Positions 5,201 through 22,138 of a stretch of DNA of 22,687 nucleotides are shown piece by piece (the stretch's first letter is position 1; every line of letters begins with the position of its first letter). Location: positions 1 to 22,687 of IMG/VR virus record IMGVR_UViG_3300027833_000236; one strand, written 5' to 3'. The notes below the pieces were generated by a model, which did no database searches, was not told the origin of the DNA, and saw nothing but the letters and a program-made list of their open reading frames with translations. Origin of the DNA: a virus. The position numbers were made by a program, and so were the translations under genes.

Positions 5201-8200
5201 GCGGACATTGGAACAAGTTGATTTACCATTGATGAAATACTTGAATCGATCCACTTGAAGTACTCAAAGAAGCGGTCAAAGTCCATGTCGCTTTCGACTC
5301 TCTCGAAGAATAATTGTCTTGCTCTTGCTAAGTCCTTGTATTCAACGCGGAATCTCTCTATTGGCCTCATGAACAAGTTTGCAAATTCCAAAGTTGTCGA
5401 GAATGATTTTAGCATCTCTTCTGAGATCAACGATGCTGGAGACTTCTCCATAATGAATAGATTGTCGCTTACATCATCGTCATCTGAGAAGTTGATCTCT
5501 TGATCTCCCTTAATATAGATGCTCTGAGCGTCATAAGCGCTCTCTGGAAGCTGTTTCTTGTAAGCTTGGATGAACTCATAGTCAATAATTGAAGAGTCGC
5601 TAGAAGCGAAATCAGAGCCTTTAGCTTTGTGCTCTCGGCGAATGACGTCATCAATCCAGCCATAGATCCTGTCTGCTGATCCTGATGTAATGTCTTCAAC
5701 GATAAACTCACCAGAACTATCTGTTGCTGTTATTGTGTCAAAATCCCAATTGAAGATCGTGAGATCCTGTGATGGAATTTGAACGTCATCAATGAGATAG
5801 AGATTTGACCCGTCAATAGATGATCGCATTCCATAATTCAAAACATCTTTGTTGTGTTGAAGGATCTCGTCATTGCCAAGATAGTCGAGCCATGCTCTCA
5901 CACCGCCAATTTGTAGATCTGTCTCTTGTTGGATTGCACCAGTGAAGTCCTCAGTGTGTGCGCCAACATAGACGCGTTTGGATGCATTCATCAATGCTAG
6001 ACCAGCTGCATTTGAGATTGTTTTACTTAAAATGACTTCATTTTCAATCTCGCCAAAATTGGTCGTGACGGCGTAGAGTTCTACATCGTAACTCGGAGTA
6101 GTGTTCGTAACCCCACCAGCATATGGATAAGTCTGTGGTCTGATTCGTAAAGCAACATTGTAGTGCTCATTTTCGTAGATGTCATAAATGTAATCGGACT
6201 CTTCATTAATCGTTCCGAGAATATCGCGCATTACAAACTTGGCATGTCGAGAGTTTAGAGAATCTCGAACAAGATAAACAGATAGGTTTTGAGTTCCCCA
6301 TGTGAAAATAGCAGGATTTGCATTTGCTTCATGAAATCCCATAATTGAAGAGGATAGGAATGGAGTGGCAAAATAGCCCTTCTCGTCTATTTCTTTCTTG
6401 TAGGGCACTACTATGTCCGCTTCCATTGTAAAAGCGTTTCTAGAGGCATCTACGGCGCTTGAAATGAATGAGTTGGGGTTCGTCGATGATGCAATTTGAT
6501 AAATGCTTGCTTCAAAGCGAGTTGGGTCATTGAAATTAACGTATTTCTTTTTAACAGATGTTTCTCGAGACTTGTCAGTGAAGTATTGGACTCCACCATC
6601 GGTGTAGAGATTAAGCTTTATTAACTCATCGTCGATACCATAGCAACGGATGAGATTGCGAATAGAACCTTCAGTCCCTTTCGTCTTGTAGATCTTCTCG
6701 AGATTGTTGTAAATGTTTGTGTAGATGATGTTCTTGATTTCATGAAGTTCAGTCTCGAACTGTGTATCTTGAAGGTTGATAGCAGATAGTTTCTCATAAA
6801 CCTCATCGCTTTCGAACATTGTCGAAATCATGAACCCCTTGTCTTTCAAGAGATCTGCTGCCATGGTCGAGGCTTTAACGCCTTCCATCGGGTAGCGCTT
6901 AGTCTTTAGTTCTGTTAATTCTTTGATTTGAACGTGAAGAGTGTCCATGTAAGAGGCTAGGATTTGAGAGAACAGTCGTAAGTTACCATTGTCCTCCTCT
7001 TGAAGCCATGCAGGCATTGAGCGGAAGAATGATTGTCCACGGTCTGCGTCATAAACAGATCCGGATGTTTGCATCTCGGAAATTAGCGCTGAGACGGATG
7101 AGTGTTCTTTATAAATAATTGGTGATGGAGTTTCGGTGTAACCTAGTGATTCCATTGCACTATCTGTTGAGCGAGCGAGATTGGTGCTTTCATAACCGAC
7201 CCACACACCATTTGCTAAGCGTCCGGAATAATCAAGGACAACAGAGTCTGCGGCATTGGTTCCAACGATACCTTCGTTGAATTTGAGGTAAACGCCGAGG
7301 TCTGATGTTGCATCGTCTGTGTTGGCTCCTCCGCCGATGGCATCGAACCAGTTTAACTTGATTTGTCGAGATGTTCTCTTGGTCTTCCAAAATCGGAACT
7401 CGTCCAAATAGCCTTGAAACTTACCAGAGCCTGTTGTGCCAAATCCACCTATGCTGGTTTGTAGTGCTCCTAGGAATGCGTCCATTTTTCCCTCGAACTC
7501 AAAAGTGTTAGAAAATGGAATAGGAGTAGAAATAATTACCCCATTAACATACACTCTAAGTTGAAGGACTGAATCTTCTTTTATCAATGAAAATGCAAAA
7601 TGCATCCAAGTCGAATCACTATAGTGGCTAGAAATATCAATTAGTTTCTGTTCGATTGATGTGTCTTTTTGTAAAGATAGTCGAATATAGGGATTAGAAA
7701 AATCTATAAATTCGATAATCATTCTAGAGTTTGTAGATGTGGTGCTTCCATTCCACAGATCCAAAATGACCTCAGCCTCATTCGCAGTTGTGGAATCTTT
7801 TTTCATCCAAAACTCAACTGTTGCTCCGCTGGTGAAGTCACAGTTCCAGTTTTGATTTCTATTATTGTCGTTGTCGTATTTAGCAGACGTTGCAACGTGT
7901 TCACTTAGACTCGATGCAGCCTCGTTGGTATGCAAGCCTCCCCAGACTCTAATGTATTCTGGTACTGTTGTCGCCCTATAGATTCCAGATAGGCCGCCTA
8001 AGTTTGCAGTTGTACCAAGCTTGACATGTCCAGTTGTCTTTGGATACTTGTTCTCGAAGACCCAGCGTTCTAAAGCAGAAGCTTTCTCTTCAAACTCAAT
8101 CTGTTCAGCTTTCGAACCATCATAGGGATAGTCTTCGTAGATTCGTCGAATAGCAGCCTCGTAGTAAAGCTCAGCTGAGCCATAATAGACGAAATTCTCA

Positions 8201-8337
8201 GGATCTGAGAAATCAATCTGTGGATGATAGGTTTGGTCTGCTGATGTCTTGTTTTCTACAAATGCGACGCTCTCGACGTCTTGGACGGTTTCTTCGAGGC
8301 TAGGTGAAGTCTTTCCGAATAAATCTTTAATACTCAT
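817..8337 (-). CDS. Giant multidomain baseplate/tail protein, 2506 aa (LamG-like domains, tail/wedge core, repeats)
   Basis: Probably a baseplate wedge and peripheral tail protein with adhesin-like parts. Apparent domains: a short N-terminal region (1-130) rich in aromatic and acidic residues; a concanavalin A/LamG-like domain (about 135-335, ending GYLDEFRFWKTKR); a tail/wedge core (about 430-580) with RSMPAWLQEEDNG and TKGTEGSIRNLIRCYGIDDE; a second LamG-like fold (about 633-840, with VYVGAHTEDFTG and RAWLDYLGN); a conserved-looking helical segment (about 1020-1070); two copies of a 123-aa beta module (about 1513-1635 and 1780-1902); and four C-terminal beta repeats of about 123-140 aa (from about 2029). 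The ATG at 8335-8337 overlaps the upstream stop by 11 bp, with GAGTGG upstream as a modest ribosome site. It follows gp6 and a DNRLRE-like gene, where T4 has 7, 8 and later wedge genes. Assignment to the virion is confident; the exact role is inferred. Confidence 0.88.
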   Translation of the reverse strand: MSIKDLFGKTSPSLEETVQDVESVAFVENKTSADQTYHPQIDFSDPENFVYYGSAELYYEAAIRRIYEDYPYDGSKAEQIEFEEKASALERWVFENKYPKTTGHVKLGTTANLGGLSGIYRATTVPEYIRVWGGLHTNEAASSLSEHVATSAKYDNDNNRNQNWNCDFTSGATVEFWMKKDSTTANEAEVILDLWNGSTTSTNSRMIIEFIDFSNPYIRLSLQKDTSIEQKLIDISSHYSDSTWMHFAFSLIKEDSVLQLRVYVNGVIISTPIPFSNTFEFEGKMDAFLGALQTSIGGFGTTGSGKFQGYLDEFRFWKTKRTSRQIKLNWFDAIGGGANTDDATSDLGVYLKFNEGIVGTNAADSVVLDYSGRLANGVWVGYESTNLARSTDSAMESLGYTETPSPIIYKEHSSVSALISEMQTSGSVYDADRGQSFFRSMPAWLQEEDNGNLRLFSQILASYMDTLHVQIKELTELKTKRYPMEGVKASTMAADLLKDKGFMISTMFESDEVYEKLSAINLQDTQFETELHEIKNIIYTNIYNNLEKIYKTKGTEGSIRNLIRCYGIDDELIKLNLYTDGGVQYFTDKSRETSVKKKYVNFNDPTRFEASIYQIASSTNPNSFISSAVDASRNAFTMEADIVVPYKKEIDEKGYFATPFLSSSIMGFHEANANPAIFTWGTQNLSVYLVRDSLNSRHAKFVMRDILGTINEESDYIYDIYENEHYNVALRIRPQTYPYAGGVTNTTPSYDVELYAVTTNFGEIENEVILSKTISNAAGLALMNASKRVYVGAHTEDFTGAIQQETDLQIGGVRAWLDYLGNDEILQHNKDVLNYGMRSSIDGSNLYLIDDVQIPSQDLTIFNWDFDTITATDSSGEFIVEDITSGSADRIYGWIDDVIRREHKAKGSDFASSDSSIIDYEFIQAYKKQLPESAYDAQSIYIKGDQEINFSDDDDVSDNLFIMEKSPASLISEEMLKSFSTTLEFANLFMRPIERFRVEYKDLARARQLFFERVESDMDFDRFFEYFKWIDSSISSMVNQLVPMSANFAGGIVDVIEPHILERDKYQRQVGLLSTITSTEASIRGAQELKYNWRVGHAPLPAVPGDPIPDNENCLWQKERRENDIVEEEAIRQVLVTQNALTASNPINLSGSNGVYSGNTYATRRLSRPYTIDIGFSNSIHGGINYSINKDRDMITPQIAVGNSSTQGTPENIVLIGANGGNGTIAKPTCIDESGPSELVKYKYDGHVILGKETTLVTLKPKSDSSQYLYKQKISKMFPGNIVSSSVDTGYSSQINKDPALGGYSIGFDIVNLHSDTTDITNEISIQGPFTHTHIGGRQSRHIHYMEGFDQTLGKIPNIADRPEAWNIYIAELDSTETTVDPADVHPADGAIGITTPDYSVGTLDSDQQKATLYREERAKRPVNIKNIQTIIGTGPHGNYQHEYEVFSTFGDQGYFLKRAANLLPDAISQELLQTTNYSTLVAQSTGLLGNLQLNAPDGVISNRFTSGTPATMTITTVSEATLTSNPTSHDRRFTLTDANGAITTFKINVNSSHTGNSTTYSPGIETTLFIGGLTTQTQIRDTIAVKINAMSPPSFTAAIVGSTLNKVLITQNTVGTTGNTGIAFPNGSIHFGFSGPNSFQGGSYGVNDKPTQDRSTGSAHVIRTRFSAPGGSEVNSSGYLDVATQQYSVYNSINFRNLSVTGDSSGEAGAIRVNSYASRREGLRTSRARHQGQFGIDSQHGVISATDYISEASFHKQHRNGTKVENRTDFTKISLAAKMLIVTVKESDLTSPTGIGTSDNHRFTLTDSNGVTTAFRISAGQSITVNNVPYAPGSTTTFGLVFITNDRAGMRDQLVVKINAMNPPSFTATPIGDNVLVTQNTPGAVGNTEITFPDGAIKLGFISSTPSGPQNFFSLGMNGTPVRYDNMHFNTPIPGSDFQYSWISAAISGSNWEADQDVLTYAPKNGMISSSVGYHEALIFPAVSDMELDDCSQNPIAQLTMNWGNVGQFSSDSNFTLTVATTSTNGTILNQADFNTLALNHTNVGCSLAEGLFSMVINGQPKNYEESPSLPTLFFNPLHTTVFDISSIRSGYTDQIIMTLDSASELEPNLTASVIRKVRTLGVVEATFYVNQTINLVPFATTPVSGQLTIAEANEVTFSRVIENIICTDMVHGLNDGTNYTEYTSPAPWASLTTLYYSNGTNTVIQSTVSVCSNVITDSIDVTFVDATITTPTLVSNVTFYDDDGSGGRTTITAESKTTTVVPGSSSPGANQVSEAEANLTTFGYVASSHLADNIGGLEFELLERDVLAGTSQTFGPQATVPSSFSQIYYSSNSSDQVILTLTSRSTSGLVVEDPSTIIFNNATLDNTTLVSNASYPNWSYSASSRTTKTVTADATITLVADGTSTGTSQNKINETEANNNLSFSSVGTNMPCGTSASYQIYISENGATEVFHGTDPNNRPNVEYSAGDTIAYRVTVSQCTDAFGNPYTDEITITLQDAATVSGP
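2630..3000 (-). repeat. Beta module copy B in the giant tail protein
   Basis: This is the second copy (residues about 1780-1902) of a module also found at 3432-3802. Shared blocks are RFTLTDSNG, VKINAMNPPSFTA, VLVTQNT and GNTEITFPDG. The pattern resembles small beta modules common in phage fibre-type proteins. The similarity is clear in protein and partly visible in DNA. Confidence 0.75.
3432..3802 (-). repeat. Beta module copy A in the giant tail protein
   Basis: This is the first copy (residues about 1513-1635) of the module at 2630-3000. It has RFTLTDANG, VKINAMSPPSFTA, VLITQNT and GNTGIAFPNGS in the same order and spacing as copy B. About 145 residues of unrelated sequence separate the copies, so it is a dispersed internal duplication. 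Confidence 0.75.
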
Positions 8338-9709
8338 TGTTTACCACTCTAAATCTATGCTTAAAAGGGAGCTCTTGATAACTCTTGGTCATTACATTAA
8401 ATAGAGCTAACTTGATTTCGTAAACATAATTAGGCTCTAACATACTAATGTCAAGATCGAAAAAGTTCCCGTTTGAGTCATAGGATAGTGTGGTTGATCC
8501 GTCAGTCATGTTGTAGTCGAAGATAACTTCATCTGTAACGACTTTGGATATTTTAAATTTAAGGTTGTCATACACCTTTGAATCTGGTCTCGATGCTGCC
8601 ACAGTGTGAATGTTTGGAGACCAATCTTTCTCTCTGATGTAAAAATAGAAGCGAGAGGTTTGACCCGCTGAATGGACATCTTGATTGTTGAGAGTAGAAA
8701 CAACGAGATCGCTTACGGAAGGTATTCCAGAAGGATCTTGTGAGAGGACCGTAATTGAGCCTGTAACGACTTCAACAGCGTTGTTGGACCAAACGTCATA
8801 GAGAGTGCTAGCAGACGTTGTAGGGGTCACTATGGCCTTGTAAACGCCTGTTGAGACTTCGGTGGGCGGTGCACCTGTCACAATTGCAGCTCCGCCAAGA
8901 GTTTCATAAAGAGAAACGGTTATTGGACCTGGTGTTAGACTGGTCAATTGACCTCGGACTTCATTGTAAAGGTAAATGTTATTAGCAACACCAGACAGAA
9001 ACGATTTTCGATGATCAGTTGTTTGAGAGTCCCATCGTGCTTCGATAACAGGCTTCTTGAAGAAGTTACTTGTCCCTCGAGCATAAAACATCTTTGTGTA
9101 GTATGAACGAGTCTCTGCGGTAGCTGTTGCTGGGAGCTTTACAATAAGACCGAAGTTTGTTGCAGGAGCATTTCGCCATGCGGTCACAAAGGCGGTTATG
9201 TTTACCAATAGATCTTCGTAGCCTTCGTCAAATTCTGCTGTGACAGGAGTTCCGCTTAAGACACCACCTCCCAAGTTTGTAGTCCAGTCAGCGCCTGCGC
9301 CGCTTTCGTTCCAGCTAGATCCCTTGCCATAAGTAAGGTCCATGTAGCTTTCCATGTCTAAGCCTGTTCCCTCTTCCCACGCTTGTTCAACAGGAATGAC
9401 TTCAAGTTCAAAATTCATCGGCAATGTTCTGCCATGCTCTGCATTGAATAGTCTAAGGTAGAACTGTGCGCCGTCGTCTAGAGTTCCTGCTGCAATGTCT
9501 GCTGTAATTTGGGTGATATCGAACTCAATAAGGATTCGAGCTTCTTCGAGAGAATAAGCATCGTTCTCATCAAGAACTTGTCCATAGATTGAGAAAACCT
9601 CGAGGATGTCGGAGGCTCCCATGTTTGCATCGCTGCCACTTGTGGCAAAGCTTTCGCGGAAAGCATTGGTGATTGTGTTGTCTTTTGTCGCATTATAACG
9701 TCTAATCAT
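8327..9709 (-). CDS. DNRLRE-like beta-sandwich baseplate/tail structural protein, 460 aa
   Basis: The N-terminal half (residues about 1-230) follows the DNRLRE pattern: an opening RRYNATKDNTITNAF, a glycine-rich MGASDILEVFSIYG stretch, an ARILIEFDI strand, then QAWEEGTGLD and VNITAFVTAWRN, where W-x-E-G-T and a D/N-[IV]-T-x-x-V-x-x-W motif are typical. The rest (about 235-460) looks like Ig-like beta domains (for example TGVYKAIVTPTTSA). DNRLRE folds often bind carbohydrate or stabilise surface structures, so a role in the outer baseplate is plausible but inferred. The start ATG overlaps the gp6 stop (ATGA), with AAAGGAG 10 bases upstream, so it is probably translationally coupled to gp6. It ends 11 bp inside the 2506-aa gene. 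I recall similar proteins beside gp6 in marine T4-like phages, but could not check. No TM segments. Confidence 0.82.
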   Translation of the reverse strand: MIRRYNATKDNTITNAFRESFATSGSDANMGASDILEVFSIYGQVLDENDAYSLEEARILIEFDITQITADIAAGTLDDGAQFYLRLFNAEHGRTLPMNFELEVIPVEQAWEEGTGLDMESYMDLTYGKGSSWNESGAGADWTTNLGGGVLSGTPVTAEFDEGYEDLLVNITAFVTAWRNAPATNFGLIVKLPATATAETRSYYTKMFYARGTSNFFKKPVIEARWDSQTTDHRKSFLSGVANNIYLYNEVRGQLTSLTPGPITVSLYETLGGAAIVTGAPPTEVSTGVYKAIVTPTTSASTLYDVWSNNAVEVVTGSITVLSQDPSGIPSVSDLVVSTLNNQDVHSAGQTSRFYFYIREKDWSPNIHTVAASRPDSKVYDNLKFKISKVVTDEVIFDYNMTDGSTTLSYDSNGNFFDLDISMLEPNYVYEIKLALFNVMTKSYQELPFKHRFRVVNNEY

Positions 9710-11508
9710 CTGATCAATACTCCTTTCACGTCAGTTGTTGGGAACTTTAATTCCATAATCACATTCTTCGGTGTTTTAATAAATGTTCCATCTTGAGACA
9801 TCGCTTCTTTGAAGTTCATTCGAACCATCGAATAGTTTCCACCAGTCTTTTGGTAAACTCTAACTTTCTTTACATCTGCTACACCGTCGACCTTTGAGAG
9901 GATTGCGTAGAGTCTTGTGATATAAAGTGGCTCTCCGATGTAAGATTGATTCGAGAAATAGTTGCGGATTGCGGTGTTGCATCGGGATAAAATGTTTTCG
10001 TTCGAAAACTGTGGGTCAACAGAGACCTTAAAGTCTATTCCGAAATTCACAATCTTAGCATCATAAATGTCAATAACATCATTGAGAGATTTATATTGTG
10101 ATAACCAATTCTTGATATTCTGTTTTAGTCTGTCGTTTGCACTTGCAAGCTTACCAGTGCTACCTTCGGATGTGATGTAGATTGCCATTCTGCGATTGGT
10201 AGCTGATGGGTCGTTTACGACACTTACACGCTTGATGATTCCAAACTTGTTGGGCATGCTGTAGATAAGAGACTCATAGTCTTGTCGAGTAACTGCTCGG
10301 CCTTGACTTGCATAGTAGCTTTTTGCTCTTTGTTTTAATTCTTCGTTTGTCATTCTCTCGGCTGAACCTATGATGGGTTCTTCGTTCGTGATCTCGAGAG
10401 AACTAACAACGGCACTCTTCTTTGAGCTTATTAAGTTGATTTCCGATGGAAACTTCATTCTTGCAGTTCCAACTGAGGTAACACTGTTTGCTCCAGCGCT
10501 CGAAAGGTCTGTGGTGTTTGCTTTAGCGATGACGGTCAATGTGGTTCCAGATGGAGCGACTCCAAGCTTGGTAGTTCCAATAAGTCTAGATGGGTCAAAT
10601 GTTTGAGAAGAGATGTAGTTCTTTCCATGCATCTCGAGAAAGACCTTTGCAGGGTCAGCGATCTCTTCAGCCTCAGAGTCCTCTGAACCGAACCCAAATT
10701 GTAGGTAGGTTCCAGTGTCATCTTGCTCCAAAACAAAGCGTCTAGTGGCTACGAAGGGCTTTAAAATGCTCCTTACACCTTCAGTAGATGCTTCGCGGTT
10801 CGTTGTTTCTTTAAACACAACCTCTTGCGAAAGATTGTCTACTTCATAATATGTGTTTCCATCAGAATCTGTAACTGAAATGACTTCACTATAAGTTGAA
10901 TCTCCTATTCGGATCTTTTTGAACTTCTCAAATGTTGAACTTGTTAAGTCTACCGTGATTCTTGAGAATACACCAGAGACAATTTGCCCAACAGCTTTAA
11001 TCGCAAAGTGCGTTGTCTGTCCGTTCGAGGAGTCGAATTTTGCTGCCACCATATCATTCATTGGATTATCGAATGAAACATCCTCAGTCAACGTAAAGAC
11101 ACCTCCAGCAGTTGATGTGAACGAAGATCCTTTCTGAAGTATTGGCATGTAATTAAAGTCGGGAGCTGTTCCTGCTGGGTTTGAAGGAACGAGAACAAAC
11201 ATCGATATGAATCCGTAAGAATTTGCTGAACCTGCGAACTTAAAGCCCATAGACCTAGCATGTTTGCGAATGTTGTTGAATTCAATTGCCGAATCCATGA
11301 AAGATTCATTTACTTGGTAATCGAGATAGTAAGATAGAACATCTCCAACATAAGCAACAGAATCAACTAGTAACGAGTTGATAGTTCCCTTTGTGAAGTC
11401 CTTCCATTGTTCTGGATAGAATCTCTTAGCATGTTCAACGATGTCTGATTTAATCGAATCAAAGTCTCTGCTGGTGTATTTTATTGGTGTTTTCTTTTGT
11501 TTTGACAT
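9706..11508 (-). CDS. 6: Baseplate wedge protein gp6 (Baseplate_J-like), 600 aa
   Basis: In T4, gp6 dimers link neighbouring wedges to form the inner baseplate ring. The N-terminus here (KYTSRDFDSIKSDIVEHA, then a region with LLVDSVAYVGDVLSYYLDY) is the typical gp6 opening. The central-to-late region has the family motif NEELKQRAKSYY followed by GRAVTRQDYESLIYSMP near residues 390-420. The C-terminal third (IGEPLYITRLYAILSKVDGV) matches the conserved end of the family. The length is near the T4 protein (about 660 aa). The ATG at 11506-11508 has GAGGGG upstream. It lies 34 bp after gp25, the usual neighbour in many contractile tails, and overlaps the next gene by 4 bp. No truncation or frameshift is visible. 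Confidence 0.93.
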   Translation of the reverse strand: MSKQKKTPIKYTSRDFDSIKSDIVEHAKRFYPEQWKDFTKGTINSLLVDSVAYVGDVLSYYLDYQVNESFMDSAIEFNNIRKHARSMGFKFAGSANSYGFISMFVLVPSNPAGTAPDFNYMPILQKGSSFTSTAGGVFTLTEDVSFDNPMNDMVAAKFDSSNGQTTHFAIKAVGQIVSGVFSRITVDLTSSTFEKFKKIRIGDSTYSEVISVTDSDGNTYYEVDNLSQEVVFKETTNREASTEGVRSILKPFVATRRFVLEQDDTGTYLQFGFGSEDSEAEEIADPAKVFLEMHGKNYISSQTFDPSRLIGTTKLGVAPSGTTLTVIAKANTTDLSSAGANSVTSVGTARMKFPSEINLISSKKSAVVSSLEITNEEPIIGSAERMTNEELKQRAKSYYASQGRAVTRQDYESLIYSMPNKFGIIKRVSVVNDPSATNRRMAIYITSEGSTGKLASANDRLKQNIKNWLSQYKSLNDVIDIYDAKIVNFGIDFKVSVDPQFSNENILSRCNTAIRNYFSNQSYIGEPLYITRLYAILSKVDGVADVKKVRVYQKTGGNYSMVRMNFKEAMSQDGTFIKTPKNVIMELKFPTTDVKGVLIR

Positions 11509-11542: not shown

Positions 11543-11971
11543 CTAAATAACTTCAAGTTCAAAAACTTCAGGAATTGTTAGCTCATTATAAAAGAATTCT
11601 ATTCTTATTCTCATCATTGAGTTTATTGGTTCAAGAGTGACCTGTAAATCCGAGATTGTCATGTAGGGCATGTAAGATTCGGCCTGTGTCCTAATTATGG
11701 ACTCTAAATTACCAGTGTCAATCTCTTGTTCTTGTAAGAATAGATAATCCTGAAGACCGATGCCATAGTTAGCATCCATGACATATTCACCTGCTCTAGT
11801 CAATAGAAGCATTTTGAGATTCTGCTTGATTGCATCGCTTTGGCTCCAATCTGCATAAGATCCAACGCCCATGGCGCTAGTGCTGACAGAGTATCTACCT
11901 TCAATGCCAAGCCTAGGGTTTGGGACTGCATCAGGAAGAAACTCCAGCGGAAAAATAATTGAAATTGACAT
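11543..11971 (-). CDS. 25: Baseplate wedge protein gp25 (GPW/gp25 family), 142 aa
   Basis: gp25 is part of the conserved wedge core of contractile tails, where it helps initiate the sheath; the fold is related to lysozyme-like gpW/gp25 proteins. The family motif is clear at residues 54-73: MLLLTRAGEYVMDANYGIGL, matching the usual LLLTxxGExxxxPxxG-G-L pattern. The C-terminus (MRIRIEFFYNELTIPEVFEL) fits the family's final strands, and the length is close to T4 gp25 (132 aa). An upstream in-frame extension exists to 12019, but I choose the ATG at 11969-11971 because an AAGGA site lies 8 bases before it, inside the last codons of the giant gene. It sits 4 bp after that gene and 34 bp before gp6. 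Confidence 0.93.
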   Translation of the reverse strand: MSISIIFPLEFLPDAVPNPRLGIEGRYSVSTSAMGVGSYADWSQSDAIKQNLKMLLLTRAGEYVMDANYGIGLQDYLFLQEQEIDTGNLESIIRTQAESYMPYMTISDLQVTLEPINSMMRIRIEFFYNELTIPEVFELEVI

Positions 11972-11975
11972 AGTT

Positions 11976-14900
11976 TTAATCCTTGAAAAGTTTTTGAAAA
12001 TCGTTAAGACAGTCTTCACCGTCTATTCCGAATGGTTTGACGCTTACGATTCTCACAGATTGCCACCAACGAACACCACCATCTATTCCTATATAAGAGT
12101 CTGGTAATAAATTGCCCACCCATTTCGCATCGAATTTACGTCTCTCTTGCTTATTACCTTCAAATTCATCATCATCTGAGCGATAGGTTGATCTAAATTG
12201 CCTCTTGAGTGTTCTCTTTACACTATCAAAAACTTTTCTCTTCCATTTATTCTTAATTTTGTCTTGCCGATCCTCTTCGACTTCGTTAGGGCCCAAGCCG
12301 ATTGATTCAAAAAAGTTGTAGTAGGAGTAGATTGCAAACAAAGATGAGAATGTTGTTGTCTTGATGATAGTCTCGAACACAAATTTAAAATCATCGGTCT
12401 CCACGAGATTATCAACGTAGCACTTGAGATCTTCTCCCATGTTTTCATCATCAAAATCGATGTCCTTAATGGCTTTATCTAGAACGTCATGTTCGTAATG
12501 AGTAAAGGAGATATGATGCCGAGATCCGACTTTTCCGAGCCTTTCCTTCGAATCATCAAGATTAGATGAGATCCCAAGAGACTCGTGCGGGACATAGATC
12601 AATCTTACCCCAAACTTAACACCAATCGTGCCGTAGAACTTGCCATTTAAAACTGTGGCATTTCCAAAATAATCAGATAGTTTTGAGTTCTCGTCAAATC
12701 GTCCTGGACTTGTTATAAGTTGCTTGAATTCTTTGACGGTCATCACTTGTTCGTGGTCATCTTTTGAGATTGTTCTGACGTACTTCTCGAGAAACATTGC
12801 GCCTTGTTTTGGGATTGGTAGTATCGAAGCCGGTGATGAGCTGTTTCCACTTGTTGGGCAATCAATAACAGATCCATATGCAGGTCTTGATGCACCTTTA
12901 ACAATTTCAACTTCAACATCGGATTGTCCGGCCTTAATGCTTGACAAGCTTATAATTCCTTTTTTAGATAAAGCATATTTCTTAATGTTCCAAACATGAG
13001 GCAATGGTCTCATATTTTGGTTTATTCTATTTGTCATTCCAGACATTTCTTTTCTCATTAATGCATCTAGAAAAACTTGGGCATGTTGTTTCGAATCGTG
13101 AATAGCTGCAACTTTCATCGCCATTCTTCTGCGGTGAGGTAACATCCGCTTCAACCTCTTTCTATACTCGGATGGTTCAAATTTATTAAAATATTCTTCC
13201 CAATCTGCATTGTGGCCTATTATCGCCGCTCCTTTGATGGTCATCTCGAGTCCTCTTGGACTTTTCGTTTCTTTAGGAAAATCCATCTGAACTCTGTTTA
13301 ATTTTTGCAGAGCCTCTGTCATTTCCGGAGTCTCTTCTAGTAGCCCATCTTTGATTTGTCTCTGTGCAACTTGGACGCACTGTTCGATAAAAAGCAAATA
13401 GTAAGTGTATGACTTAACCATGTTGATGTCCCAAACACCTTCTTCGCCTATAAATTCTTGCTCCATCTTTTCGGACATCATCCGAAACAATGAGTCATCA
13501 TAGTTTTCTAGAGACAACCTTAAAGATCCTAAAATTGGCATAGTCCTCAGGATAAACTGTGTTCCATAAGTTCTCAAAGTTGCCATTAGGACCCCTTCCA
13601 ATATTCCATGATTGGCGGGTGTCAACTGTCTATCATAAGGGACTTCGAAACGACACTCAGGCGCTTGAGATAGACGCTTATCTATTGGTAACGAGCCTTC
13701 AACTTTCTTAGCTCTCTTTGCGATGTTGTGTATCTGCAAAAAACCATTGTCGACATCTTCACAAACTTCCACTTCTGGGATAAATGTTTTCATCATTCCC
13801 ATCCAACCACTATAGGATGCAGGTTCAACGTAAATCTTAGGAAATAAATAAGCACCTCCATGAATAGCAGGGTCCAAAAAGTGCACCCTAGGGTGTTCCG
13901 TTGCGGATTTGCCCAACACCTTGTCCCATGGGAACTTGTTATAGTACCAAGTTGTCATGTCTTTGGGGTCGGATTCAGGGTTCACATAGAGCATATCTCT
14001 AAATGTTACTTTTTGTTCATCATCAGCGCCAAAGCGAAATCCAACAGGAGTCTTACCATTCGGCTTTTTAATAATTGATTCTTTCACAAAATTCAAAGCT
14101 TTAAGATTCCACGCGTCAGTGATCTTCTCGATCTTATCGAGAGTCGAGTTGCCCATGATAACATTTGCCTTCTTCATGAGGAAGTTTCGGAACAAAACCG
14201 TCTCGACATTAAAGTGTTCTTTAAAGATGCTATAGTCAATCTCACTTGTCATGTCTTGAGCAGATAAATCTTTAATCTTAAAGCGGCTTGAGTTCGGACT
14301 CTCAATAGCTCCAAAATCAACTCCTTCAAGTCCGAGTTTCTGTTTCTCTTCTTTTGACATCTTGCGGTGGAAGGTTTCATCAACTTTTATAAGATGGGTT
14401 GGGTTGCGCCTTGGGAGAACACGGTAAATGAGCTTGCTTTCATAGTCGGGATCATCTTCGATGTCTTTGAAACTCATGACGATTGTATTTTTGGCTTTTG
14501 AGTCATACTTAATGTTCATGCTCTGCATTTTTTGCATCAAACGGCCGCCGACTGTTTCGGGGTTTTCTCCACGCATCCTATCCAAATCATAGGGGAAGCC
14601 AAAGTCTGTACCAATCACTGGAATTTTGAAGTCAACCTGAAATGGCCAACTATCTTTTCGTCTCTGGAGCATTTCTTCATTATCTACATAATTTGGACGG
14701 ATGAAGGGTTGTCCCGCTCTCCTGTTGTGCTTATTAAGTCTATTTCCATAAGTGTCAACGAGAATGTTACCTAGAATCGAGTGCCTTCCTCTTATGAGAT
14801 CTGAGATAAACTTCTTTTCGATTGTTTTGAAAAAATTACTCAACATGTCAAGCTTCTCAGCTGCAAGATCTTCATCTTCTAAAACAATGGCCGATGGATC

Positions 14901-17900
14901 AGTTTCACATGCAGGATCAGATTGTTTGAAAAGGTCCTCTATCGCTTCCGCCAATAGCCCTTCAGGGCCTTTTTGAAGCATGTCAGACACAGTGCCTAGG
15001 TCATTAAGTGCACGTTCATTAGCTTTATCTACGAGCTCTTGAGCGGTTTCACCGTCAAGTCCATTACTAATATAGATTGATCTCCTATCTTCATTCCATT
15101 GATCGAGCTCTGATTGACTTAAGCAGATTGAATCAAAAATTGGACCTTCGGGTACTAGGTTTGATTGTTCTTTTAGGAATTTTCGAAGTTCTGGTGGGAT
15201 GAATTTTTGCATTGATCCAAAGCAGTCCTTAATATCTTCAGGATCTCCAAGAACTCCAGCTAGGTCAGGGCATCGGGAATTGACGAGTTGCGACATTTTT
15301 GTTATAACGTTTGAATCCATGTTTGATGGAGTGTTTGTCAAGAGATTGATGACTTCTTGTTTTGACATTGTTGCATTCATTGTTTGAAATAGACAGTCAT
15401 ATGCCCCAGTGTTCGGAGCTTGAAGTCCGCCACCGCCTTTACCAAGAGCGTTGTTGAAAAGGTTTTCCTTGATTTTGTCAAGGTCGCTATCAGCATTCGG
15501 ACAGAAAGCGTCTTTTACCGCTTCGTCGAGGCCTTGGTTATTACCGGTCAAAAGTCCTGCTGCGAATTGCCCTGCAGCGTTTATGCCTTTACATAGAGCA
15601 TCATCAACTGTCTTTATCAATTTGAGGATCATTCGAACCAAAATTTGTGTCAAGACTGTTTCAAGTTTGGCAACGAATTTGTTGCGTAAGATTGCAAGGA
15701 AATCTTTTTTCCAAGGCTTTAAATCTCTGAAATTAAAGTCTCTCATCTTCTCAGGAAAGCTTATGGGGGTGTTACCATCGCCACAAGGGTCAAACGATAG
15801 GGTCGAGAGAAAAGACTTTACAGGAGGATTGTGGAGCCCCTGAAAGGCACATCCAACCTGATTGAGATAGCGCTGGACTAATTGTCCACCGGGGAATCGA
15901 TCAAGGTGAGACATTAACTCATCAATTCCAACGACATCCATCATGTTCTCAATGTACATGTCGATTAACTCAGCTTGAATATCTCCCAGTGCTGTGCCTA
16001 GAGTCCCTTGGGCATTTGTTTGAGCTGCGATAAGTTCTTGTTGCCGTTCTGGTGGGAGTTTCGAGAAGTCTTCTTCTTTAAATTTTTCGAGTTGTTTTTG
16101 GATGTCGTTTTGAGCGATCTCAAGTTGTTGAATTTCAGCTCTTAGTCTGTAAATACCACCTTTCACATTTTGGTCAAAATTACCGTCTTCCTCGTTTGAA
16201 ACCAAATCTCTCACTGCAGTATCCATTTCCAAAAATGATGTCTCTTCTTCTATGCGCGCTTGCTTTTCTACAATTTGATTCCCGAAGTCAGCTAAGTCTG
16301 TATTTAATTTATCCTTAAGGGAGGCTAAGTTGTTTGTCATTTCTCCATCTTGGTTCAAATACGACAAATAAGGATTTGCATCTTGCGACCCGCCGGCCGT
16401 AAAACCTTCTTCCCATGGCATTGGCATGTCTGCCCACTTCTTTTTCGCCATCTCTCGAAGTTCCGATTGCTTTGCTGGTGGTAACCCTTGGACGAAGAAG
16501 CCCATGACATCAATATCCATAGCTTTTAAAGCCGATTCGACGATCTTCTTGAAAGCTGCTTCTTGTGTTACACCTGAGAATAGACACTGGATTGCACCTA
16601 TCGTTAGAGACTTGATGCCACACATGGTCGCTCTCTTTAAGAGGTCCTCCGGAGCCGCTTTTGCCTTGTCATTTGCTTTTGGTGATGTGATCTCACCAGA
16701 ATTCATAAAGATTTCTATGTCAACTAGTTGAGACAAGATTCCGTCTTGATGTTTCAATTCTTCAAGTGCGAGTTTTTTTGCCTCTTTCCAATAAGGATTT
16801 TTCTTGTTTTTGGCAGATTCTCGAGCCCGTTTGGCGGCGCTGTCTCGTTGGTTTCTTTCTTTTTCTCTTTGTTGAGTTGGGCCATCTTCGGATTGAATCG
16901 TCCGCAACTTGGACTGGATTCTCTTCGCTTGGAGTCTTATTTCTAGTTTTTTTGTTTCAAGAGTCTTTATTTGTCTTTCAATCTTTGCCACTTTACCAGT
17001 GTTTGTAGCGAATTGGAACTCTTCTTCATTCTCTCTTAGTTTCTCCAATTCAGATTGGACCTCTTTGATTTCCGTTAGAATTTGAGCTGGGATTTCCATA
17101 GTTAGCGAATGAAGCTCTGCTCTTAGTTTATCGGGGTCATCGGAAATTGAATCTTGTCTTTCCTCAACTTTATCCCTGGCTTCGAAACCTGTTGTTAATC
17201 TTGCGCTAAAATACTTCTTCTCAATCTCGGGATCAGCAAGAAGATCTTTACATGACTCTTTCGAGTTGAACTCATAAGCAATTGCTTGGACCAAGCTCAG
17301 AGCTTCATTTAGGATGTAATCCTTTAATTCTCCGCCGAAGTCTTGGATATTATCTGCGACGCATTCCCCTAGAGAATCTTTGATGGACTCTTCATTGAGC
17401 GTTCCATAGTCTACGACCAAAAGTGGATAAGTAAACTTAACCAAGAAGTCGAGCCATGGGTAGGATTCGCGCGCTTTGAGAGCAATGTCTATTTCGTTTA
17501 TCTTTGCAATGTAATTCATTATCGTTGGCTTCAAGCTATACTTCTTTGCAAACTTACTGTTTCGACCACAGATGCGTTGATATTCACAACCTTCTACTTT
17601 AGCATCGACTCGCTTGATTCGATAAGGATTTCCATTTTCGCCGTCCATAAATGTGATGCGAATCTTGTCGGCATTCTTCACTATCACACTTGGAATGTTT
17701 GATCGAATGTTCCATCGTTTTTTGCGAGGCTTGTTTTTATTGTTTGCCTCTGCTTTGAGGTCATCATAGAATGTGTCAATCTTGCTCGAAAACGAAGAGG
17801 CATAATAATCACTACCGCTTTCTTTGAATTTCAAAAACCCATCTTGAGTCTGATAGAAGTAAGACTGATATGTTGCATATGCCATTAATGATGCTTTTAG

Positions 17901-18683
17901 TCTGAAGATTTGGCTGTAGAATTTCTTAACATCTATTTCAACCTCTCCTTTCGTTGTCTCGGCGGATTCCTGAATCTCTCCACTTGTTGGGTTATCTGGA
18001 ACAGAATCTAGAATGAAAGCGGGGATTGAAACCAAAACCTTAAGCAAGTTCTGCATTGGGTCTATGTCGAAATCAATCGCTCTTGCGTAAAGCTCGAGAG
18101 CAAATGGGTTCTTCACTTCGTTTGAAATGTTTTGAAGTACAAACTGGGTAAACGATAGGGGTTCTTCGGGGTCGAATGATGTTGCTCCAAAAACAGTGTT
18201 TGTAACAAGATCTGGGCAGTCTTTCGCTTCTCCGAGAGGATCATCCTTGAGGTCCATGTAGATGCCATCAAAGTTGTCATATTGTTGCAATAACTCGTTT
18301 GCAACTCTTCCTGCAAATGCTGGACCGTTGTGAGTTGCGCAAATGATTTGTTGGGCTATTAATTTATCTGTGTCTTGAAGGATCAGTCGTATTGCTGGTT
18401 GGACAAAGGATCGGAATAAATGATCTCTTGTGGGATACTTATTAGAACCTACAGCATCTCGAAACTCTGCTGCTGTGAACGAGTTGCCTTCATTGTTGAT
18501 TGTTACGCAAATCTTGTATTCACATGCAGCTTCATCCAAATAGGCTTCTTCAGGAATCTGTCTCCAATCAGGAGCGATAAAAGATTTGTTTGGTGTGCAA
18601 GCTGGGCATAGTTTCTTCAGCGGCAATGGTTCCGGTATGCCACCACAAACCTTTGGTTGAAATTGTTCGAAATTTTCTGACAT
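11976..18683 (-). CDS. Giant Cys-rich coiled-coil virion protein of unknown function, 2235 aa
   Basis: I do not recognise a named family with confidence. It starts at the ATG at 18681-18683 behind a strong AGGAAGG site, 1 bp after the 339-aa gene. Visible parts: an N-terminal Cys cluster (C13, C26-P-A-C29, C54, C59), possibly metal-binding; coiled coil 1 (about 530-650) followed by a Lys/Arg-rich stretch; coiled coil 2 (about 783-890); an amphipathic/hydrophobic region (about 998-1048, including AGQFAAGLLTG); a more globular second half; and a basic helix near the C-terminus (about 2142-2165). I count 28 cysteines, 22 of them in the first 1280 residues or so. C[LA]F[QS] motifs recur near residues 700, 942 and 1095. 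The place between hub/spike and gp25 suggests a baseplate or tail protein, perhaps in the injected or inner-tube part. A tape-measure role is possible but the position is odd for one. The reading frame is intact. Confidence 0.85.
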   Translation of the reverse strand: MSENFEQFQPKVCGGIPEPLPLKKLCPACTPNKSFIAPDWRQIPEEAYLDEAACEYKICVTINNEGNSFTAAEFRDAVGSNKYPTRDHLFRSFVQPAIRLILQDTDKLIAQQIICATHNGPAFAGRVANELLQQYDNFDGIYMDLKDDPLGEAKDCPDLVTNTVFGATSFDPEEPLSFTQFVLQNISNEVKNPFALELYARAIDFDIDPMQNLLKVLVSIPAFILDSVPDNPTSGEIQESAETTKGEVEIDVKKFYSQIFRLKASLMAYATYQSYFYQTQDGFLKFKESGSDYYASSFSSKIDTFYDDLKAEANNKNKPRKKRWNIRSNIPSVIVKNADKIRITFMDGENGNPYRIKRVDAKVEGCEYQRICGRNSKFAKKYSLKPTIMNYIAKINEIDIALKARESYPWLDFLVKFTYPLLVVDYGTLNEESIKDSLGECVADNIQDFGGELKDYILNEALSLVQAIAYEFNSKESCKDLLADPEIEKKYFSARLTTGFEARDKVEERQDSISDDPDKLRAELHSLTMEIPAQILTEIKEVQSELEKLRENEEEFQFATNTGKVAKIERQIKTLETKKLEIRLQAKRIQSKLRTIQSEDGPTQQREKERNQRDSAAKRARESAKNKKNPYWKEAKKLALEELKHQDGILSQLVDIEIFMNSGEITSPKANDKAKAAPEDLLKRATMCGIKSLTIGAIQCLFSGVTQEAAFKKIVESALKAMDIDVMGFFVQGLPPAKQSELREMAKKKWADMPMPWEEGFTAGGSQDANPYLSYLNQDGEMTNNLASLKDKLNTDLADFGNQIVEKQARIEEETSFLEMDTAVRDLVSNEEDGNFDQNVKGGIYRLRAEIQQLEIAQNDIQKQLEKFKEEDFSKLPPERQQELIAAQTNAQGTLGTALGDIQAELIDMYIENMMDVVGIDELMSHLDRFPGGQLVQRYLNQVGCAFQGLHNPPVKSFLSTLSFDPCGDGNTPISFPEKMRDFNFRDLKPWKKDFLAILRNKFVAKLETVLTQILVRMILKLIKTVDDALCKGINAAGQFAAGLLTGNNQGLDEAVKDAFCPNADSDLDKIKENLFNNALGKGGGGLQAPNTGAYDCLFQTMNATMSKQEVINLLTNTPSNMDSNVITKMSQLVNSRCPDLAGVLGDPEDIKDCFGSMQKFIPPELRKFLKEQSNLVPEGPIFDSICLSQSELDQWNEDRRSIYISNGLDGETAQELVDKANERALNDLGTVSDMLQKGPEGLLAEAIEDLFKQSDPACETDPSAIVLEDEDLAAEKLDMLSNFFKTIEKKFISDLIRGRHSILGNILVDTYGNRLNKHNRRAGQPFIRPNYVDNEEMLQRRKDSWPFQVDFKIPVIGTDFGFPYDLDRMRGENPETVGGRLMQKMQSMNIKYDSKAKNTIVMSFKDIEDDPDYESKLIYRVLPRRNPTHLIKVDETFHRKMSKEEKQKLGLEGVDFGAIESPNSSRFKIKDLSAQDMTSEIDYSIFKEHFNVETVLFRNFLMKKANVIMGNSTLDKIEKITDAWNLKALNFVKESIIKKPNGKTPVGFRFGADDEQKVTFRDMLYVNPESDPKDMTTWYYNKFPWDKVLGKSATEHPRVHFLDPAIHGGAYLFPKIYVEPASYSGWMGMMKTFIPEVEVCEDVDNGFLQIHNIAKRAKKVEGSLPIDKRLSQAPECRFEVPYDRQLTPANHGILEGVLMATLRTYGTQFILRTMPILGSLRLSLENYDDSLFRMMSEKMEQEFIGEEGVWDINMVKSYTYYLLFIEQCVQVAQRQIKDGLLEETPEMTEALQKLNRVQMDFPKETKSPRGLEMTIKGAAIIGHNADWEEYFNKFEPSEYRKRLKRMLPHRRRMAMKVAAIHDSKQHAQVFLDALMRKEMSGMTNRINQNMRPLPHVWNIKKYALSKKGIISLSSIKAGQSDVEVEIVKGASRPAYGSVIDCPTSGNSSSPASILPIPKQGAMFLEKYVRTISKDDHEQVMTVKEFKQLITSPGRFDENSKLSDYFGNATVLNGKFYGTIGVKFGVRLIYVPHESLGISSNLDDSKERLGKVGSRHHISFTHYEHDVLDKAIKDIDFDDENMGEDLKCYVDNLVETDDFKFVFETIIKTTTFSSLFAIYSYYNFFESIGLGPNEVEEDRQDKIKNKWKRKVFDSVKRTLKRQFRSTYRSDDDEFEGNKQERRKFDAKWVGNLLPDSYIGIDGGVRWWQSVRIVSVKPFGIDGEDCLNDFQKLFKD

Positions 18684-18684
18684 G

Positions 18685-19704
18685 TTACCTTCCTATAAAT
18701 ACAGTGTTGCTTAAGATGTAGTCGCTTGGAACGCCTTTCATTGCCCCATCTTTGGTTCCCAAGAATTGCCTTTCGGTTTTTCCTTTGTGGAACTCTTCAA
18801 CGATCCCCTCAAGCTTTTGAGCAAAAATCTTTCTAACACCCTTCAGCCCTTCGGTTACTGCTGTGGGCGATGGTGTTGACGGTCCTGCAACAGCTACGAT
18901 GTGGACGTGTCCTGCTAAAGCAATTCTATATAGAGCCATCTGGTGTTCCATTTCATCTACCTTGCCAGCTAGTGTATCGACAAAATCCTTCATTACGTAA
19001 AGATAGTTGACTAGATTTTCACCACGAACGGCTGGTTGGTAATCGTTTTCAGTAATTGCTCCGATTTCGATTTTAGCGGTTACCTTGTCTGATCCCGTTA
19101 CTAGCCTTTCTTTGCCATTGAATTTTGCAAGACCAGCCAGAATTCTAACTCTCTCTCGACCTATTATAAGTGTATGATCGGCTTTGATTCCAATTCCGGA
19201 CTTTAAGCTGTCCGAAACTGCTGTGAGTTTGTCAGAGTTTTCTGTTGCGAAGTAATGATTGATGTTCCCACGTTCCGTGAGATAGATTCTAGCGCCATCC
19301 TCAGCAAAGTTTGCTCTAGACTTCGTGGACGATGTTCGAATCTCTTCAGACGCCGAAAGCTGTCCTGCAACGATGTCAATAGCTTCACACTTGGTTCCGC
19401 CCGCTCCGCCAAGGCCGGTAGATCGAGCACCATAGTTATCTTTAGTAAGCACGATTCGAGCGCCTGCTTTGGCTGTCTCACCTGTTGTCTCATCGACGAT
19501 TACTGACTTTCTGCTAAAAACCTTTTCACATGGTGCTGGTGAGAATGCTGGTAGCTTCTCATCGTCATCCGTTAGGAATAGCCCAGATCGTGCCGGAAGC
19601 CTATCTTTTTGTGCTTCTAAAAACTCTGAGATATCTTTGCGATTTGAATGGACGAGGGCGTTATAGGCCTCTGTCATTTTTACTTTAATTTTACGATGCT
19701 GCAT
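18685..19704 (-). CDS. Baseplate hub/spike-like structural protein, 339 aa
   Basis: Probably a central baseplate or spike component. The sequence has recurring beta-type units: ARIVLTKDN, ARIYLTERGN and HTLIIGRERVRILAG (residues about 80-225). A helical region near 230-260 (ENLVNYLYVMKDFVDTLAG) is followed by a GHVHIV motif; a helix followed by H-x-H is something I recall in spike-type proteins of environmental T4-like phages. The chosen ATG at 19702-19704 has CCGGAG about 10 bases upstream and overlaps the peptidase gene by 14 bp. An internal ATG at 19675-19677 (MTEAYNALVH) is a possible alternative with a weaker ribosome site. No TM or signal peptide. It follows the M15 hub protein directly, so the two may assemble together. 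Structural role fairly likely, exact role uncertain. Confidence 0.72.
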   Translation of the reverse strand: MQHRKIKVKMTEAYNALVHSNRKDISEFLEAQKDRLPARSGLFLTDDDEKLPAFSPAPCEKVFSRKSVIVDETTGETAKAGARIVLTKDNYGARSTGLGGAGGTKCEAIDIVAGQLSASEEIRTSSTKSRANFAEDGARIYLTERGNINHYFATENSDKLTAVSDSLKSGIGIKADHTLIIGRERVRILAGLAKFNGKERLVTGSDKVTAKIEIGAITENDYQPAVRGENLVNYLYVMKDFVDTLAGKVDEMEHQMALYRIALAGHVHIVAVAGPSTPSPTAVTEGLKGVRKIFAQKLEGIVEEFHKGKTERQFLGTKDGAMKGVPSDYILSNTVFIGR

Positions 19705-20830
19705 GGACTGCTGTCTCCGGTTCTGCTGTTACACTTAGATGAATGTGTTCTGCTGGTGCAAACACTCCTCTTTCTCTCCTTATTTTAAGACCAACCTCTG
19801 GGTTGCCCTTCTTGTGATCCCACACTTGTTCCCAATTGTAGCCCTTGACCCAACCGGCAGATTTCATATCCTTTAGGACTTCCAACATTATAATGACATT
19901 TTCATAAGGTTGCTGGTTTGTATTAATGTCCATCGCCTTTAGAGTAGAATGTCCAGAGCCATTCTTGTGCCAGCCGGCTTCAATCTGCTTTGTGTATTGG
20001 TCACCAAGTGCTTTTTGTAATTTTGCTACGCTTCGCCACTCAGTGCCGAAAATGACTTTTTTTGGACCAACGACGGTTTTTCCTCCTTGAGTATAAGTAT
20101 TCATGAACCACCTTCTAAAACCAGCTAAGGAAGATGCGGATCCATTAAATCGACCGCCAATCATAGCGCTTGCTTGCATAGGGCCATTTCTGAACAAGGA
20201 GTTAACTTGGATGGTTGTTCCAGTAAAGGCGGTTTCCTTAAGTCGCTTTCTGAACTCATCGAAGAAATTCTTAAAGTGGGAATATTTATCTAATTGGGCT
20301 TGCAAATCTGATCTTGCTATCAATTGAATCTCTGCTCCTGCCGTTCTGGTAACTTTTAAAACAGGCTTCTTAGCTTTACCAACGAACGCAGCCATGGCAC
20401 CACCAGCCTTACCGGTAACGCCACCAGATGCGTCGTCAAAAGAAAAAGAGGACCCTTGCTTAAGAGAGATAAGGGTCACCAATGCTCCCTCCTTCTTACA
20501 TATCCAAATCGAGCCATTCGTGAGGGATTCTGCGTTTGGGTGATCAGATCTTACTGTTCCCTGCACGCAGGCTTGGATTGCAGAATTATACTCTTGACGA
20601 GACTTGGCGTCAATTGGATTAGTGCTACCAGCGTCGTGGAATGATGGACTAAACACTCTACAGAAGATTGGACCAGTTGTTGCTGGTTCCTCTGTGCTAT
20701 GGTTAGTGTAAACAAATGCTTCAAAAGTATCTGGTGTCGGAGATTTGTTTAAAAGGTCTTGGACCTTTTCGACGCGATACTCATTCCTATCTGATGGCTT
20801 TAGTAGCTGGCTTTGTGATTCAGTCGTCAT
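19691..20830 (-). CDS. Baseplate hub-like protein with C-terminal M15-type zinc peptidase, 379 aa
   Basis: A probable tail-associated peptidoglycan peptidase that opens the cell wall during injection. The C-terminal domain has the M15 signature S-x-H-x-x-x-x-A-x-D (SGHSTLKAMD; H294, D301) and a late E-x-x-H (EHIH; E361, H364). This is the VanX/T5-endolysin-type layout of two zinc ligands, a catalytic Glu and a third His. The N-terminal half (about 50-130, with FCRVFSPSFHD and SIWICKKEGALVTLI) looks like an OB-fold-type domain as in gp5/VgrG-like hub proteins; that part is tentative. A TTG-initiated extension reaches 20863, but I prefer the ATG at 20828-20830 with GGAAG 9 bases upstream. It overlaps the 98-aa gene by 11 bp and the next gene by 14 bp. 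T4 gp5 carries lysozyme in this role; here a peptidase replaces it. A free endolysin is less likely given the baseplate context. Confidence 0.82.
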   Translation of the reverse strand: MTTESQSQLLKPSDRNEYRVEKVQDLLNKSPTPDTFEAFVYTNHSTEEPATTGPIFCRVFSPSFHDAGSTNPIDAKSRQEYNSAIQACVQGTVRSDHPNAESLTNGSIWICKKEGALVTLISLKQGSSFSFDDASGGVTGKAGGAMAAFVGKAKKPVLKVTRTAGAEIQLIARSDLQAQLDKYSHFKNFFDEFRKRLKETAFTGTTIQVNSLFRNGPMQASAMIGGRFNGSASSLAGFRRWFMNTYTQGGKTVVGPKKVIFGTEWRSVAKLQKALGDQYTKQIEAGWHKNGSGHSTLKAMDINTNQQPYENVIIMLEVLKDMKSAGWVKGYNWEQVWDHKKGNPEVGLKIRRERGVFAPAEHIHLSVTAEPETAVHAAS

Positions 20831-21116
20831 TCTTATTGTCTTCCGAGTTTTGTATTTGATCAAAGATTTGAGAATAATCCTTGTCTGTCAACTCATCAGA
20901 CTTTTCATTTTTAGCCATTAGACCACAAAGTTTCACGAGTTGTTCGTTTGATCTTTGAAGCGTTTCAACATATTTTGCCAAAATTAGACCAAGATCCCTA
21001 TGTTTCGAAGGATCCTGTGCTAAGTGTCGCATTGCATCATCAAGGAGTTCTCGAGTTGTTTCTCGATCTTCGTCGATGTTCTTGATTGCTTGTTCTATAT
21101 GTTTTTCGCTGCTCAT
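20820..21116 (-). CDS. Small helical conserved-looking protein, 98 aa
   Basis: All predicted helix, charged, no Cys cluster and no TM. The centre (LAKYVETLQRSNEQLVKL, residues about 46-63) looks like a conserved amphipathic helix, and the tail is acidic (SEDNKNDD). I recall similar small proteins near hub genes in cyanophage-type T4-like genomes, without a known function. It sits between a gp55-like sigma factor and the hub peptidase. A gp33-like transcription co-activator is conceivable from this position, but no sequence feature proves it. The ATG at 21114-21116 follows a perfect ACTAATTAGT palindrome; the nearest AAGGA is about 12 bases upstream, which is long unless the palindrome folds. 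Confidence 0.7.
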   Translation of the reverse strand: MSSEKHIEQAIKNIDEDRETTRELLDDAMRHLAQDPSKHRDLGLILAKYVETLQRSNEQLVKLCGLMAKNEKSDELTDKDYSQIFDQIQNSEDNKNDD

Positions 21117-21825: not shown

Positions 21826-22138
21826 CTTCTTCTCCAGATTCTTCGTATTCGACCGGTTCTGATAGTGATGCAATATCACCATATTGTTCTTCAAGGATGA
21901 CAGACAGGGATCCGGCGTGGTCCATCAGTGATTTCAGTGTTTCATCACCATAAAATGAGTCGAGCTCATAAACTGCTTTGATGTGGTTTTTAAATCCAAC
22001 CACCAACTCCAGCAGGTCTTCAGAGTTGTCAGCTATTGTTAGCAATTCTCTAGATTGTTCTCGAGAGAACCAAATTAGAATTCCATTAACCACAGCTGAA
22101 ACAGAGAATGCTATTCCCAACCATAAACTAATTGTCAT
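21758..22138 (-). CDS. Small single-pass membrane protein, 126 aa
   Basis: Residues about 4-24 (SLWLGIAFSVSAVVNGILIW) form one clear hydrophobic segment, followed at once by a positively charged FSREQSR, so the N-terminus is probably outside and the rest in the cytoplasm. The soluble part is helical and turns strongly acidic near residues 94-113 (EESGEEDATQENEKE), then ends in RRR. The start ATG at 22136-22138 has GGAG seven bases upstream and overlaps the zinc-ribbon gene by 11 bp. The last 23 codons overlap the sigma gene out of frame. I recall small one-helix proteins of this kind in marine T4-like phages, without a known function. It could be an inner-membrane anchor or regulator; nothing in the sequence shows holin or antiholin function. 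Confidence 0.75.
   Translation of the reverse strand: MTISLWLGIAFSVSAVVNGILIWFSREQSRELLTIADNSEDLLELVVGFKNHIKAVYELDSFYGDETLKSLMDHAGSLSVILEEQYGDIASLSEPVEYEESGEEDATQENEKEKHVLYAGTRRRDS
21826..21835 (-). promoter_or_regulatory. Ribosome-binding site that sets the sigma-factor start
   Basis: GGAGAAGAAG directly precedes the ATG at 21823-21825, with GGAG six bases away. The upstream TTG start and the next ATG (M11) have no comparable site. The site lies inside the membrane-protein gene, so the two genes may be translationally coupled. Confidence 0.7.

Follow-up and report, generated by a model that had tools for sequence, protein, structure and literature searches.

A giant gene in a baseplate operon

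We analysed a 22.7-kb IMG/VR fragment of an uncultivated tailed phage of marine origin (record IMGVR_UViG_3300027833_000236; the whole stretch is referred to as the window) in which a single open reading frame (ORF) encodes a protein of 2235 amino acids (aa), here called the giant. The minus strand is the coding strand of this ORF, and the plus strand there is full of stops. Read along the minus strand, the genes of the window follow in the order 126, 252, 98, 390 and 339 aa, the giant, gp25, gp6, 460 aa, 2506 aa and a cut gene (Table 1). A first-pass annotation, made from the DNA letters alone, had given the coordinates, length and 28 cysteines correctly and left the strand unstated. It had also claimed two coiled coils, which the AlphaFold model renders as long helices (residues ~517–626 and 783–868), and basic stretches, which were located at residues 318–328, 1841–1857 and 2148–2164. 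The product has a mass of 254 kDa and an isoelectric point of 5.4. The ORF is real, far beyond chance: its frame is unbroken in all full-length orthologues, there are 112 non-identical family members, and differences from the orthologue at locus L001 are concentrated at the third codon position (0.185/0.088/0.501 for positions 1, 2 and 3).

Table 1. Features of the giant gene and its neighbours in the window
Feature	Coordinates	Strand	Residues	Basis or remarks
Giant protein gene, 254 kDa	11976..18683 (stop codon included)	minus	2235 aa	ATG start, stop at 11976
N-terminal four-cysteine motif, C-x(10-13)-C-x2-C-x(22-25)-C	18522..18647	minus	13, 26, 29, 54	Invariant in family
N-terminal alpha/beta region	17409..18596	minus	~30–425	AlphaFold, mostly predicted local distance difference test (pLDDT) 70–94; common to distant giants of cluster cA (L046/L048/L050/L052) by hhalign
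Exchangeable cassette, 408 bp, coding coiled coil 1	16800..17207	minus	493–628	DNA comparison; helices 517–626 in model
Second coiled coil, variable	16080..16337	minus	783–868	AlphaFold and comparison
Central helical region	14784..15986	minus	900–1300	Invariant Cys 945, 967, 1031, 1061, 1187, 1259; common to distant giants
C-terminal module	11979..14036	minus	1550–2235	Conserved in core family; invariant Cys 1641, 1677, 2088, 2225
gp25 (baseplate wedge)	11543..11971	minus	142 aa	Likely start 11971; Pfam 7.5e-10
gp6 / baseplate J (baseplate wedge)	9706..11508	minus	600 aa	PHROG 3.1e-29; HTVC008M gp6 matched
Wedge-module protein	8327..9709	minus	460 aa	Homologues in immuto (369 aa) and Mel-JY01 (386 aa) (hhalign probability 100)
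gp7-slot protein with laminin-G domain	817..8337	minus	2506 aa	Homologues in immuto (gp109, 1265 aa) and Mel-JY01 (1336 aa) (probability 99.7 and 100)
Protein directly upstream of giant	18685..19704	minus	339 aa	Spike-like by position and pattern only
390-aa protein	19691..20863	minus	390 aa	Weak M15-peptidase resemblance at C terminus (E 0.15)

The giant belongs to a large family of uncultivated viruses

Relatives were collected by scanning IMG/VR with the giant protein, with sub-alignments of diverse members and with an iterated profile. Thinning of the 112 members at 85% identity left 63 full-length giants of 2087–2682 aa (median 2232), with a median pairwise identity of 0.25. This is a large, previously undescribed family. 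A tblastn search of INPHARED (50,697 phage records) with three different members returned nothing significant, only one chance row at E 4. Among GTDB genomes, a first scan found no relative and a second found one (L259), on a low-coverage 4.6-kb contig of a metagenome-assembled genome labelled Flavobacteriales, which gives a weak hint of a Flavobacteriales host for the clade. Comparison of the protein and the family profiles with Pfam, PHROGs and PDB sequences produced nothing significant, only noise; together with Foldseek searches against solved structures, which found no relation to a known family either, this bears out the earlier description of the family as unknown.

More distant giants of 1532–2927 aa occupy the same slot and are tied to the family by profile. 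Local hhalign without realignment (default realignment scores were uninformative for most clusters) gave probabilities of 98.7 over giant residues 90–1295 for cluster cC (L030, L029, L045), 96.7 over residues 901–1296 for cB (L035, L044, L051) and 95.8 over residues 32–427 for cA; the demonstrated homology covers these three clusters and leaves out the same-slot giants of L043, L054, L056 and L059. At three loci (L035:3160-9568, L038:3-4089 and L039:1-2976), the slot is occupied by two ORFs in succession (e.g., 1532 and 597 aa), representing either a split gene or a sequencing error.

A fixed place in the wedge operon of a sheathed clade

Gene order around the giant is close to invariant. In 62 full-length loci, gp25 lies immediately downstream in 61, a member of the 339-aa family (~330 aa) lies immediately upstream in 61, and gp6 is the second gene downstream in 60, with intergenic gaps of mostly 0–50 nt. 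The first-pass annotation had placed the giant between a hub or spike gene and gp25. The gp25 side of that placement held, and the hub/spike label remains a reading of the upstream neighbour, for which no Pfam or PDB match and one marginal PHROG match among 28 members were found.

In a gp6 tree built by a quick method, one branch with support of 100 parts 45 giant-bearing from 19 giant-free rows, and presence of the giant in the slot changes 1 time on the tree versus 16.5 times when shuffled. Many giant loci came from searches for the giant itself; the gp6-derived loci (L026–L103) did not. The giant-free side holds the isolates immuto and Mel-JY01, and in part of this group the same slot is held by a helical protein of 371–491 aa. 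One giant-free-group locus (L073:876-3863) encodes a 995-aa slot protein that matches the 371-aa immuto family (E 3.7e-11), possibly an independent expansion.

T4-type portal, terminase, major head protein, sheath and tube are present on contigs of the giant clade. These contigs belong to contractile-tailed phages (sheath and tube in contig G010, sheath in 8 of 14 long contigs), so the giant is encoded in the gp25–gp6 operon of sheathed phages. The wedge genes gp25 and gp6 and the gp8-slot and gp7-slot genes all sit alongside it, in keeping with the initial view that the giant is unlike the usual wedge or hub proteins. Because the other wedge genes (460 aa and 2506 aa) are homologous to those of giant-free phages, the giant is an addition to a complete wedge module.

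Nineteen invariant cysteines

Nineteen of the 28 cysteines (residues 13, 26, 29, 54, 366, 441, 478, 688, 700, 945, 967, 1031, 1061, 1187, 1259, 1641, 1677, 2088 and 2225) are kept in at least 62 of the 63 full-length sequences, compared with only 31 of the 2207 other residues (Fisher p 6e-27). The first four resemble the spacing of a metal site (C-x12-C-x2-C-x24-C in the giant). Cysteine content is 0.7–1.3% in the giants and 0–0.7% in the sheath, tube, gp6, portal and head proteins of related contigs; within the window, gp6, gp25 and the 460-aa protein have 0–1 cysteine each. Cysteine pairs were also sought through joint loss in distant members, where alignments were too poor for any to be read.

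Structure models

The AlphaFold model of residues 1–1200 (64 sequences; pLDDT 71.5, predicted template modelling [TM] score 0.47) has an alpha/beta region at ~30–425 followed by helices with two long coils, and residues 1036–2235 (79 sequences) were modelled with a pLDDT of 78.4 and a predicted TM score of 0.74. Foldseek and VIA searches with the N-terminal half returned generic coiled-coil rows only (best E 0.74). With the C-terminal half, no PDB row scored below E 1.1, and VIA reached a Z of at most 5.3, across 53 residues. The queries were 1200-residue models, with which a single-domain match may be missed, and a new fold is not claimed. Among BFVD models, the C-terminal half matched an unnamed viral protein, A0A516M7H3_2, at E 2.4e-43 (1208 columns, 22% identity, query TM score 0.58), then A0A1B1IUZ9 at E 7e-8 and A0A1B1IUR6 and A0A516MAR9 at E 1e-3 to 9e-3 (probability 0.95–1.0). 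On the strength of these model comparisons, A0A516M7H3, A0A1B1IUZ9, A0A1B1IUR6 and A0A516MAR9 are likely to be members or distant relatives of the giant family.

Wholesale exchange of a coiled-coil cassette

DNA comparison of the window with close relatives revealed a sharply bounded replacement. The L002 sequence is 97.6% and 91.9% identical to the window on the two sides of positions 16800–17207, which are themselves unaligned, and is nearly identical to it outside this cassette. L005 has the same breakpoints (92.6% and 93.0% on either side), as does L010, and L001 aligns straight through. The replaced 408 bp code exactly for coiled coil 1. The allele of the window is nearest that of L001 (65%), and the L002 allele is nearest that of L010 (70%); since both versions have relatives, the cassette represents wholesale allele replacement and not a frameshift.

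Comparison with known tail proteins

The first-pass annotation saw no T4 counterpart at this position, and hhalign comparison with T4 gp53, 5, 6, 7, 8, 10 and 11 (single sequences only) likewise produced no match. Neither did comparison with the hub-region proteins of HTVC008M. A known protein of similar size and setting is VrlC (2001 aa in HTVC008M), like the giant a ~2000-aa baseplate-operon protein of marine T4-related myoviruses and taken as a gp7 substitute in pelagimyophages and cyanomyophages (PMC7029224). The vrlC gene lies downstream of gp6 (and gp8), whereas the giant gene lies upstream of gp25, and hhalign gave a probability of 0.1–0.2 against the single HTVC008M sequence rather than a family profile. 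On these comparisons, the giant could not be assigned to VrlC, gp7, gp53 or another named family. It was rejected as a replacement for gp7, because the 2506-aa gp7-slot gene is present and homologous to the version in giant-free phages.

The slot proteins of immuto and its relatives (371–491 aa, once 995 aa) are, like the giant, helical and encoded between a spike-like gene and gp25–gp6, but they are much smaller, and profile comparison of the giant with the immuto and Mel-JY01 slot proteins detected no homology (hhalign probability 0.4 for immuto).

The contractile tail of Agrobacterium phage Milano is locked by disulfides in sheath and baseplate (PMC10811340). Milano and the giant clade share contractile tails and conserved cysteines, which in Milano lie in baseplate parts and are functionally important (PMC10811340); with 19 of its 28 cysteines invariant, the giant shows such conservation in a probable tail protein. 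The Milano cysteines connect numerous small proteins of sheath, wedge and fibre, whereas those of the giant clade lie in one protein and are only candidates for disulfide bonding. Among known systems, the giant would seem to work most like an extra wedge or hub brace.

Neighbouring genes

The gp25 ORF was called as 158 aa, overlapping the giant; the 142-aa form, which starts 4 nt past the giant's stop and has an identical arrangement in L007, is probably the true gene. The gp7-slot laminin-G protein is itself giant and very variable, with 4178 aa in G010 (112487-125023, L116-L117) and 3968 aa in G019 (33279-45185), compared with 1265–1336 aa for its homologues in isolates. Ahead of the baseplate operon, the 252-aa protein (window 21136-21894) bears a faint resemblance to sigma-70 region 2 (E 0.12). 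Elsewhere on the long contigs, a protein of 524–526 aa looks GroEL-chaperonin-like at its N terminus by eye (G010:25736-27313, G019:136381-137961 and G022:172112-173686).

Discussion

The giant is most probably a lineage-specific extra baseplate component, stabilised by cysteines and carrying an exchangeable arm; we put the probability of this reading at roughly 0.65. A built-in baseplate part is favoured by the place in the operon, the restriction to a sheathed clade, a size that hardly varies and the lack of any other candidate function. The earlier proposal of a new baseplate or injection component stands as the best reading, given the operon place and the lack of a known family, with the data deciding neither for nor against injection.

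Under this reading, the giant would be confined to a single large, uncultivated clade of myoviruses that are related to T4 and mostly marine. It would be expressed from one operon together with the wedge proteins and assembled into the tail tip beside the spike and the gp25–gp6 wedge. Its N-terminal alpha/beta region, central helical region and C-terminal module may brace the inner baseplate. The nineteen invariant cysteines could staple the protein, through disulfides formed in the virion or partly through a metal site at the N-terminal motif. Coiled coil 1 might project as an exchangeable arm that is matched to a variable partner, e.g., a fibre or the cell surface.

Several observations weigh against a cysteine-stapled baseplate part. 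Neither profiles nor Foldseek matched the giant to a baseplate protein, and its "spike" neighbour is spike-like by position and pattern only. Its cysteine content (1.25%) hardly exceeds the proteome average of related contigs (~1.0–1.1%), so it is the invariance of the cysteines and not their amount that is unusual, together with the contrast with gp6, gp25, sheath, tube and major head protein. The invariant cysteines are odd in number and therefore cannot all be in intramolecular disulfides. The distant giants, which align poorly, show no sign of the pattern.

In a bolder version, which is tentative and rather unlikely, the giant would act as the master brace of a new baseplate type, locked by redox state or by metal. 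An invariant cysteine lattice in the 250-kDa chain would keep the tail tip together until attachment, the recombining coiled-coil arm would set partner or host specificity, and the fold would be one unseen in solved structures.

It is improbable that the giant is instead a pilot protein, which the tail tip would carry and eject into the host cell during infection. Pfam and PHROGs revealed no enzymatic domain, no hydrophobic membrane segment is present (best 19-residue mean 1.36) and the gene keeps a strict place among wedge genes, although the great size, the acidic overall character with basic stretches, the adjoining spike-like gene and the many cysteines, which could unfold or refold on a redox change, would suit such a role.

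There is likewise little chance that the giant is a gp27-like hub protein or a giant version of one. The gene order spike-X-gp25 would fit, no hub is annotated near the giant and no gp27 was recognised. Nevertheless, the giant has no profile match to the 445-aa tail protein of HTVC008M or to gp5, in Mu and P2 the hub gene lies upstream of the spike gene, and unannotated proteins of 1031–1540 aa downstream of the tape-measure candidate described below could be the hub instead. In G019, the protein at that place has 1452 aa and 15 cysteines (165386-169744; L239:5386-9744), and similar-sized proteins occur there in other contigs.

A baseplate assembly scaffold or chaperone, outside the finished virion, would be compatible with the wedge-operon location; presence of the giant in the virion is itself inferred. 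The chances of this are slim: a 250-kDa chaperone would be unusual, and near-constant length and invariant cysteines fit a built-in part.

The first-pass annotation had also raised a tape-measure role, for which the giant is suitably long and helix-rich with two coiled coils. All eight sheath-bearing long contigs examined (G010, G019 and G022 mapped in full, five sampled around the sheath) encode a separate, homologous helical protein of 707–892 aa after sheath and tube, with several strongly hydrophobic segments in the G019 and G022 copies; its position and composition suggest that this is the tape measure. With the giant in another module, tens of kb away in the three fully mapped contigs, and its length not rising with that of the candidate, a proxy for tail length (Spearman rho -0.57, n=7, p 0.18), the tape-measure role was rejected as hardly credible.

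The giant marks a whole clade of uncultivated myoviruses without an isolate in INPHARED; at most one protein of their baseplate operon exceeds it in size. That cysteines are nearly its sole invariant residues makes a covalent or metal lock a prediction open to direct test, and the swapped coiled-coil cassette could help to show how these phages vary their contacts while keeping the core unchanged. A contractile machine with a 250-kDa part added to a T4-type wedge module that is complete in other respects would widen the notion of a baseplate.

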